Source of the DNA: Serpentinimonas raichei
GTDB taxonomy: Bacteria; Pseudomonadota; Gammaproteobacteria; Burkholderiales; Burkholderiaceae_C
Assembly: GCF_000828895.1 (NCBI RefSeq)
Contig: NZ_AP014568.1
Span: 1-64,000 of the forward strand
DNA length: 64,000 bases
Direction: 5' to 3'
Positions 51,339 to 52,807 of the stretch are shown here, one piece after another. Below the pieces are notes generated by a model that did not search any database, was not told the origin of the DNA, and worked only from the letters and a program-made list of their open reading frames with translations. A program made the translations under genes and the position numbers. Position 1 is the first letter of the stretch. Each line of letters starts with the position of its first letter.

Positions 51339-52466
51339 TTACCGACCCAGCTCGCGCCGCGCCGCCACCGCCTCCGCCAGGCCTTGCAGCAACTGCTGCG
51401 AATCGTCCCAGGCGATGCAGGCGTCGGTGATGCTCTGGCCGTATTCGAGCGCCTGCGCCGAGTCTTTGCCGGGGGTGAATTTTTGCGCCCCGGCCTTGAG
51501 GTGGCTCTCGACCATGACGCCCATGATGCTGCGCGAGCCAGCCGCGATCTGGCCCCCGATGTCGGCCGCCACCGCGATCTGGCGCTGGTGTTGCTTGCTG
51601 CTGTTGGCGTGGCTGCAATCCACCATCAGGCGCGCCGGGATCTGCGCCGCTTGCAATTCGGCGCTGGCGGCGGCCACGCTGGCGGCGTCGTAGTTGGGGG
51701 TTTTGCCGCCGCGCAGAATCAGGTGGCAGTCCGGGTTGCCCTTGGTCTGCACGATCGCCACCTGGCCGTTTTTGTGCACCGACAAAAAGTGGTGTCCGCG
51801 CGCCGCCGCCAAAATCGCGTCGCTCGCAATGCGGATGTTGCCATCGGTGCCGTTCTTGAAGCCGATCGGCGCACTCAGGCCCGAGGCCAGCTCGCGGTGC
51901 ACCTGGCTCTCGGTGGTGCGCGCGCCAATGGCACCCCAACTGATCAGGTCGCCGATGTACTGCGGGCTGATCACATCCAAGAACTCGCTGCCTGCGGGCA
52001 GGCCGAGCCGGTTGATCTCGATCAGCAACTGGCGCGCAATGCGCAGCCCCTCGTCGATGCGAAAGCTGCCGTCGAGGTAGGGGTCGTTGATCAGGCCCTT
52101 CCAGCCCACGGTGGTGCGCGGTTTTTCGAAATACACCCGCATCACGATTTCTAGTGTGTCGCGGTGCTGCTCGCGCAGCGGCTGTAGGCGGCGCGCGTAG
52201 TCGAGCGCAGCGGCCGGGTCGTGGATCGAACACGGCCCGATCACCACCAGCAGCCGGTCGTCCTGCCCTTGCAGGATGCGGTGGATGTTGCGCCGGGTCT
52301 GGCCGATGAGTTGCTCCACCGCCGTGCCCCGGATCGGGAAAAAGCGGATCAGGTGTTCGGGGGGCGGCAGCACGGTGATGTCCTCGATGCGTTGGTCGTC
52401 GGTCTGACTGGTGCGGTCGATCGGGTGCGTGTGCCAGTAGTCGGCGGGGGCGGCGGCGTTGCTCAT
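51339..52466 (-). CDS. aroG: 3-deoxy-7-phosphoheptulonate (DAHP) synthase, AroG type
   Basis: First enzyme of the shikimate pathway, condensing PEP and erythrose 4-phosphate. From the ATG at 52466 it has 375 residues of the type I AroA class: VVIGPCSIHDPAAALDYARRL, MRVYFEKPRTTVGWKGLINDP, GFKNGTDGN and MVDCSHANSSKQ. It is preceded on the same strand by an aromatic-rich leader peptide and a terminator, so expression is most likely attenuated by aromatic amino acid supply. Confidence 0.96.
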   Translation of the reverse strand: MSNAAAPADYWHTHPIDRTSQTDDQRIEDITVLPPPEHLIRFFPIRGTAVEQLIGQTRRNIHRILQGQDDRLLVVIGPCSIHDPAAALDYARRLQPLREQHRDTLEIVMRVYFEKPRTTVGWKGLINDPYLDGSFRIDEGLRIARQLLIEINRLGLPAGSEFLDVISPQYIGDLISWGAIGARTTESQVHRELASGLSAPIGFKNGTDGNIRIASDAILAAARGHHFLSVHKNGQVAIVQTKGNPDCHLILRGGKTPNYDAASVAAASAELQAAQIPARLMVDCSHANSSKQHQRQIAVAADIGGQIAAGSRSIMGVMVESHLKAGAQKFTPGKDSAQALEYGQSITDACIAWDDSQQLLQGLAEAVAARRELGR

Positions 52467-52545
52467 AGTCAAACTCCACAAGGGTTGGGCTGGGTACGAA
52501 AGGGGCGGGCTGGGCTTGGGATCGAGGCTTGCTTGCGGCACGGGC

Positions 52546-52576
52546 AAAAAAAAACCGCCGGAGGGTTCCGACGGTT
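52546..52576 (-). terminator. Attenuator terminator in the aroG leader
   Basis: On the minus strand AACCGTCGG (52576-52568) pairs with CCGGCGGTT (52561-52553) with one wobble, loop of six, then nine T residues (52554-52546). It lies 80 bases before the aroG ATG. The competing segment CCGACGG (52632-52626) inside the leader peptide can pair with CCGTCGG of the 5' arm, forming an antiterminator. Confidence 0.88.
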
Positions 52577-52598
52577 CTTTGGGCGCCTGCGGCCTGCT

Positions 52599-52682
52599 TT
52601 AGGGGGCCACACTCATCGCTCTCTGCCGTCGGGTGACGCGTGAGAACCAAAAGCGGGCAAAATAAAAGCAGGCTGCTTGCAT
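52599..52682 (-). CDS. aroG leader peptide (aromatic attenuator)
   Basis: Twenty-seven-codon open frame, start MQAAC, in which residues 6-13 read FYFARFWF: six of eight are Phe, Tyr or Trp. It ends two dozen bases before the attenuator terminator of aroG. Codons 4-6 (GCCTGCTTT, 52673-52665) are perfectly complementary to AAAGCAGGC around the stop (52600-52592), and codons 17-19 contain the antiterminator arm CCGACGG. Ribosome stalling at the aromatic codons would leave CCGACGG free to break the terminator. No Shine-Dalgarno is seen; the -10 box is so close that the mRNA may be leaderless. Confidence 0.82.
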   Translation of the reverse strand: MQAACFYFARFWFSRVTRRQRAMSVAP

Positions 52683-52689
52683 GGGCGAC

Positions 52690-52695
52690 AATGTA
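52690..52695 (-). promoter_or_regulatory. Extended -10 box of the aroG leader transcript
   Basis: On the minus strand TACATT is preceded by TGC, an extended -10. The predicted start falls at or one base before the leader-peptide ATG (52682). No -35 hexamer is recognisable. Confidence 0.4.
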
Positions 52696-52807
52696 GCACA
52701 TTTGCAGCCAGCGCGGACTGCCGCAGCCCAAAACCAACTCCGGCCCCGCTGCCCCCACCCTGAGCCGCCACGCGCGGGCCCTAAAAGCGGGTAGAGTGTC
52801 AACCCTA

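Follow-up and report, generated by a model that had tools for sequence, protein, structure and literature searches.

A predicted ribosome-mediated attenuator with aromatic control codons in front of aroG in Serpentinimonas raichei and related proteobacteria

The analysed window, a stretch of 64,000 nucleotides of Serpentinimonas raichei DNA, encodes on its minus strand a 3-deoxy-7-phosphoheptulonate (DAHP) synthase of 375 aa (aroG, 51339..52466). Its product matches PF00793 (5.6e-95) and belongs to the type I DAHP synthases according to TIGR00034 (536.3 bits, cut-off 173.2), in line with the original naming of the gene; the score with the AroG equivalog model NF006723 (547.5) was slightly under the cut-off of 568. 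The aroG ATG at 52466 is preceded by the Shine-Dalgarno sequence GGAG (52474..52477, minus strand) and lies 79 nt beyond the end, at 52546, of a T tract that closes the leader region described below. A methyltransferase frame (PF13679, 50422-51333) lies downstream of aroG in the same orientation; it may share the aroG transcript and hence its attenuation. A divergent ABC transporter frame (PF00664 and PF00005, 52796-54838, plus strand) begins 113 nt away from the leader ATG, and this gap may therefore hold two promoters. The genome also encodes a second DAHP synthase (G000:C1:2568512-2569558), 59% identical to the first, and inspection of its locus revealed no such leader.

The putative attenuator spans positions 52682 to 52546 of the minus strand. 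It opens with a leader ORF of 27 codons (ATG at 52682 to TAA at 52599), which has no Shine-Dalgarno sequence and whose 27-residue product is MQAACFYFARFWFSRVTRRQRAMSVAP. The run Phe Tyr Phe Ala Arg Phe Trp Phe that had been reported at residues 6-13 is present base by base (52644..52667, minus strand), and the aromatic enrichment found at this place across 62 leaders (see below) marks these as the control codons. When all 2436 start-to-stop readings with a length of 10-60 codons were compared over the two strands of the window, this ORF, with its two possible start codons, was the sole one with six aromatics in eight residues. Codons for the end products of the pathway are concentrated in a short leader ORF, as is characteristic of attenuators, and this arrangement is conserved in relatives.

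The leader ORF is followed by an intrinsic terminator with nine T residues, in agreement with the original prediction. Direct reading gives a hairpin of 14 pairs (52580-52549, minus strand), the outer of which use the T tract (52554-52546). A consensus terminator scan of the window did not report it, which we attribute to the stem running into the T tract and leaving the tail short of T. The 5' arm of the terminator, region 3 (CCGUCGG, 52568..52574), pairs with region 4 (CCGGCGG, 52555..52561). It is equally the full complement of region 2 (CCGACGG, 52626..52632), an arm located inside the leader ORF, so the alternative pairing claimed earlier does exist. The resulting antiterminator excludes the terminator, as expected of an attenuator, and is supported by covariation.

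In the fold predicted without a ribosome, the leader RNA consists of one long rod and the terminator. The 137-nt leader has a folding energy of -67.3 kcal/mol, compared with a mean of -42.1 (sd 3.87) for dinucleotide shuffles (z -6.5; none of 200 as good). The inner hairpin of the rod, GUUCUC..CGUC-ACCC-GACG..GAGAGC, is built from the 5' arms GUUCUC (52642..52647) and CGUC (52635..52638) and the 3' arm GAGAGC (52618..52623). It occupies part of region 2, since CGUC pairs with GACG (52630-52627) in the antiterminator arm. In the outer helix, GCCTGCTTT (52673-52665) base-pairs with AAAGCAGGC (52600-52592), which overlaps the stop codon. This helix is the protector of the original prediction (GCCUGCUUU at 52665..52673 with AAAGCAGGC); the pairing is present, but it is merely the outer part of the long rod and is not conserved across relatives.

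An extended -10 element (TGC TACATT, pattern TGnTAnnnT; 52690..52698, minus strand) ends 7 nt before the leader AUG, which predicts a transcription start at the AUG itself. The leader ORF is therefore probably leaderless, its transcript starting at the AUG or within a base or two of it, a probable feature that the original prediction had missed. No promoter with both hexamers was found before the leader by a consensus scan of the window.

A scan of named genomes gave at least 591 aroG loci, and the conservation of these elements was followed in the 80 that scored best, of which 79 were testable (L020, at a contig edge, was left out). An aromatic leader precedes aroG in 62 of the 79, and 61 also possess the terminator and the antiterminator arm. 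The exception, L080, has an aromatic leader and a strong hairpin without GGCGG/CCGCC arms and was excluded from the arm counts. The loci with a leader include those of Comamonadaceae genera, Burkholderia, Caballeronia, Paraburkholderia, Massilia, Rugamonas, one Cupriavidus copy and one Xanthomonas. The remaining 17 loci, including Polynucleobacter, two Cupriavidus copies and several distant records, lack the leader; among them is counted L071, whose aromatic ORF without a terminator was judged spurious. A pattern search recognized terminator arms and T tract in 61 of the 62 aromatic-leader relatives (L080 excepted) and in 59 of a further 60 leaders, L137 being the one in which they were recognized by reading. 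A stricter first terminator finder had reported none in 21 of 63 leaders, in which reading revealed hairpins with longer loops or bulges, except in L071. The window and the 61 relatives with all parts make up the 62 leaders analysed below.

Conservation of the leader codons in relatives had been proposed as a check, and it bears the prediction out: Phe and Tyr are present in all 62 leaders. Trp, and with it the full set of three aromatics, is present in 47 of the 62; in the second set, Phe and Tyr are found in 60/60 and all three in 44/60. Across the 62 leaders, aromatic residues make up a fraction of 0.53-0.98 at the positions 12 to 5 codons ahead of the region 2 core and of 0.31 at 4 codons before it. 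This fraction is at most 0.16 further upstream than 12 codons and at most 0.03 downstream, except for 3/13 at one late position. Where Trp is present, it mostly occupies the positions 5-6 codons ahead of region 2, at which it makes up 39 of 124 residues. Between the end of the last aromatic codon and the region 2 core there are 8-18 nt, so that a ribosome at this codon would cover the sequence up to region 2. The C-termini of the peptides differ in reading frame by lineage (PGGRE, PLADRE, AVE) while the nucleotides GGCGG are kept, which points to selection on the RNA arm and not on the end of the peptide. The window (52599-52632) and one congener carry an additional base next to the antiterminator arm, which shifts the frame of the leader (L143 and L141 were compared); in the other congener, without the extra base, the leader reads MQAARFYFASFWFSRVTDGRER and its stop lies 10 nt past the arm.

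The promoter position is also shared by many of these loci. In 35 of the 62 leaders, TGnTAnnnT ends 6-9 nt ahead of the ATG, where mononucleotide shuffles would lead one to expect 0.29 such cases; in the further set, 40 of 60 leaders have it at a distance of 3-9 nt. A Shine-Dalgarno sequence of at least 4 bases precedes 1 of the 62 leader ORFs versus 52 of 58 placeable aroG starts. The further set is less clean, with a Shine-Dalgarno sequence before 7 of 60 leader ORFs. Burkholderia and Oxalobacteraceae loci have no -10 at this position, many of them carrying TA-rich boxes about 25-45 nt upstream, so leaderlessness looks lineage-specific.

Pairing of the 2:3 core was observed in 55-56 of 56 distinct sequences, partly by construction, because the arms had been located by the core pattern. 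As the core patterns served as the search anchor, the informative cells are those outside the core. The pair flanking the core (C-G, U-A or A-U) is formed in 47 of 56 sequences versus 36.1 after partner shuffling, and none of 500 shuffles was as good. Sliding the partner by one base reduced the paired cells from 424 of 560 to 209 and 216. Beyond this pair, little or no excess of pairing remains; at the next two positions, 20 of 500 shuffles did as well. Within the core, the usual arm pair is GGCGG/CCGCC, and CCGACGG/CCGUCGG of the window is a compensated variant, with A-U at a position where all 55 other sequences have G-C. L137, which comes from a different genus of the family, has its A-U pair one core position away (CCCAGCGG/CCGCUGGG). 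Each of the two A-U swaps leaves a U-G pair in the terminator.

In 56 of 62 leaders, the 2:3 helix proved stronger than in synonymous recodings of the leader, with a mean z of -1.37, although the window's own helix was no stronger than its recodings (z +0.2). The inner hairpin (1:2) gave a weak signal (mean z -0.25, below 0 in 43 of 62). It was considered as a universal protector, since it appears in many single folds, and was rejected on this weak signal and on the result of RNAalifold, which predicted no pair on the MAFFT alignment. When arms were swapped between loci, the own pair beat the swap mean in 47/62 (2:3), 43/62 (1:2) and 46/62 (1:spacer), a modest preference that is confounded by relatedness.

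A sequence-only model of the leader was used for genome searches in samples of the order, the phylum and close relatives, which overlap. Matches were obtained in 40 of 60 relatives at E <=0.01, a sample that includes the genome itself and two congeners, and in 35 of the 36 genomes sampled from the window's family at the same threshold. At E <=0.001, the model matched 60 of 399 order genomes and 34 of 398 phylum genomes. Each matching genome in these samples yielded one match. All 63 distinct loci opened for the best matches, drawn from these overlapping results (60 order, 40 relatives, 34 phylum), have a DAHP synthase directly downstream. Outside the window's own family the distribution is patchy, with 339 of the 399 order genomes unmatched at E <=0.001; filters were stricter in this search, and some of these genomes match more weakly in the relatives search.

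Eight matches of the phylum sample belong to a single genus outside the window's class, whose genomes measure 6.7-8.8 Mb. A related leader of the MITVATNYFWYFSYDSSLAAGGSRSI type precedes a DAHP synthase there (L145, L146 and L148), and the element thus reaches beyond the window's class. In L145, a TATATG box was read 7 nt before the leader ATG. In Cupriavidus, the aroG copies L030 and L036 (75% and 74% identical to that of the window) have no leader and L070 (64%) has one; isozymes may be divided into attenuated and non-attenuated forms.

Rfam 15 contains no family that matches the leader at its gathering cut-off, and the whole window yields just a tRNA. Likewise, no match over the cut-off was obtained in 20 loci (19 aroG loci with a leader and one of the paralogue). 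One candidate, ncS01 (RF02865), is described in the excerpted source as a biofilm sRNA of Burkholderia cenocepacia (PMC5688073). The leader matched it weakly over its full length (22.6 bits, E 0.13; gathering cut-off 58), and its identity with this family was ruled out by scores and locus context. In the 20 loci, Burkholderia aroG leaders included, ncS01 did not reach the gathering score, and in 5 of them no match to it was listed at E <=5. It passed the cut-off in 3 of 300 genomes of the order, the window's own not among them, and the ncS01 loci gave no match to aroG at E <=1. In these loci (L083-L085) the sRNA lies in the gap upstream of an ORF that presumably encodes an amino-acid ABC transporter binding protein, which it resembles.

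The effect of a ribosome was modelled with a fixed footprint covering the 18 nt before and the 12 nt after the first A-site base, on RNA extending up to region 4; the resulting probabilities are equilibrium estimates, and static folds of this kind are crude. In the window, the predicted probability of the 2:3 pairing, P(2:3), is 0.00 without a ribosome and 0.03 with a ribosome at the stop codon. It rises to 1.0 with codons 11-13 in the A site and is 0.02-0.43 for codons 6-8. By this model, codons 11-13 (Phe-Trp-Phe) would matter most for antitermination in the window. At least one stall position with P(2:3) >0.5 was predicted in all 62 leaders and in 57 of 59 of the second set; a stall at the last aromatic codon itself sufficed in just 47 of 62. 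Once region 4 is included, the terminator persists in the minimum-energy fold of every window state computed, and antitermination must therefore win kinetically.

Folding of the 62 leaders revealed no protector conserved across relatives. The sequence upstream of region 3 beats its shuffles at z < -2 in just 10 of 62 leaders, the window's rod reaching z -4.8. A strong rod characterizes the window's genus: two congeners fold alike (-62.4 and -54.8), one of them with outer arms that are altered yet still pair. The stop codon of the window lies 24 nt past region 2, a greater distance than in 49 of the 62 leaders, which makes direct masking by a terminating ribosome doubtful there. Termination in the window and in the congener with the same 24-nt distance probably leans on the rod and not on masking.

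Taken together, these features support the original proposal of ribosome-mediated attenuation before aroG, since leader codons, arms and terminator are all conserved, with compensatory changes. With a probability of roughly 0.87, we read the element from its sequence as a classical transcription attenuator that would couple DAHP synthase, with which the shikimate pathway begins, to charged tRNA-Phe, tRNA-Tyr and tRNA-Trp. Sequence, complementarity and conservation are observed directly, and the leaderless start, the ribosome stall and the starvation response are inferred. Transcription would begin at or next to the leader AUG, with a ribosome trailing the polymerase. When aromatics are plentiful, the ribosome would reach the stop codon and region 2 would stay in the inner hairpin or under the ribosome, so that region 3 would pair with region 4 and transcription would end in the T tract at 52546. 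When they are short, the ribosome would pause at the control codons, in the window chiefly 11-13, and open the 5' side of the rod. Region 2 (CCGACGG) could then capture region 3 (CCGUCGG) ahead of the synthesis of region 4, which would block the terminator and allow transcription of aroG. If the leader were not translated, the long rod would hide region 2 and termination would be expected.

This last step may differ between lineages. In many relatives, the 2:3 pairing could be the default state, blocked solely by a ribosome at the leader stop, in which case the element would read both the aromatic supply and the initiation of an ORF that is leaderless or has no Shine-Dalgarno sequence. Folding without a ribosome produced the 2:3 pairing in 35 of 62 leaders and 27 of 59 of the second set, with P 1.00 in the Burkholderia, Caballeronia and Paraburkholderia loci L045, L046, L048, L050, L051, L053, L054, L057, L059 and L064. 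In addition, region 2 ends at most 17 nt before the stop in 49 of 62 leaders, and 61 of the 62 leader ORFs have no Shine-Dalgarno sequence of 4 bases or more. The window itself, however, terminates by default (P 0.00, rod z -4.8), and the same crude static folds let 28 of 62 leaders form 2:3 even with a ribosome at the stop. We regard termination that depends on translation in this way as possible and less likely than the classical attenuator. Because the leader ORF has no Shine-Dalgarno sequence, failed initiation might also cause read-through in lineages without a protector, the element then reading translation capacity. The fuller picture of a leaderless Phe/Tyr/Trp attenuator in several proteobacterial lineages, in which a lack of any single one of the three would release DAHP synthase (OR logic weighted by codon position), with this read-through where the protector is missing, is put forward tentatively.

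The presence of Phe and Tyr codons in every leader of both sets, and of Trp codons in about three quarters of them, would also fit a sensor that is effectively specific for Phe and Tyr, or for Phe alone, with the Trp codons incidental. Trp is mostly placed at the last control positions, near the most effective stall site of the window, which speaks against this narrower specificity; we consider it rather unlikely, and joint sensing of Phe, Tyr and Trp plausible from the codons. A functional product acting in trans, either the terminated leader as an sRNA or its peptide as a small protein, has a precedent in rnTrpL/peTrpL of Sinorhizobium, where the trpE(G) attenuator gives rise to a trans-acting sRNA, which starts with the ATG, and a peptide (excerpts of PMC7298713). 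For the aroG leader such a product is improbable, as the peptide ends change frame while GGCGG stays, and an added role of this kind would be compatible with attenuation.

On these sequence-level features, the aroG leader appears to be a real and widespread member of the ribosome-mediated attenuators. It would give many betaproteobacteria a specific means of controlling the step at which aromatic synthesis begins, and the same control would be present in at least one Xanthomonas and in one genus of another class of the phylum. Short terminated transcripts mapped before aroG in these species may be attenuator products and not independent sRNAs.

Comparative attenuator surveys (Vitreschak 2004; Lopatovskaya 2010) could already predict the aroG leader. 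In the literature searched, which lay outside these two surveys and was partly represented by excerpts, no aromatic attenuator of aroG in Betaproteobacteria was found, nor a betaproteobacterial leader with the three aromatics or its leaderless promoter. The betaproteobacterial entry in the part of PMC1173090 consulted concerns another gene cluster, gyrA-serC-aroQ/pheA-tyrA of Bordetella. The same source (Table 7, Merino database) lists putative attenuators before aroAI-alpha/tyrA in two Vibrio species. These resemble the aroG leader as predicted attenuation at a DAHP synthase operon in another proteobacterial group; they differ in being tyrA-associated. In Acholeplasma, the uORFC-13-1 motif before aroF (3-deoxy-7-phosphoheptulonate synthase) has been proposed as a uORF attenuator (excerpts of PMC8632094). 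It shares with the aroG leader the DAHP synthase gene and Phe codon(s) beside an apparent intrinsic terminator, a likeness of described arrangement. It differs in its 24 representatives from Acholeplasma and environmental DNA, its ribosome binding site and its content of at least one Phe codon. With the Acholeplasma Phe uORF and the Vibrio predictions in print, the idea of a DAHP synthase attenuator is not new.

The closest classical counterparts are the pheA and trpE leaders of E. coli, in which an intrinsic terminator and a mutually exclusive antiterminator are combined, as they are here. They are described as ribosome-mediated attenuators with consecutive Phe or Trp codons in their leaders (excerpts of PMC11878033), and the aroG leader resembles them in its short ORF with runs of end-product codons ahead of a gene of the same pathway. 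Unlike them, it would control the common entry enzyme, combines the codons of all three aromatics in one leader, places the antiterminator arm inside the ORF and has no Shine-Dalgarno sequence. In E. coli, control at this first step is different: in the same excerpts, aroG is repressed by TyrR and the sRNA GcvB, and attenuators are named for pheA and trpE. The predicted leaderless start has its parallel in trpL of Sinorhizobium meliloti, whose leader RNA has its 5' end at the ATG of the leader ORF (excerpts of PMC7298713). Both would thus carry a leaderless leader peptide, in S. meliloti sensing Trp before trpE(G) and here preceding aroG.
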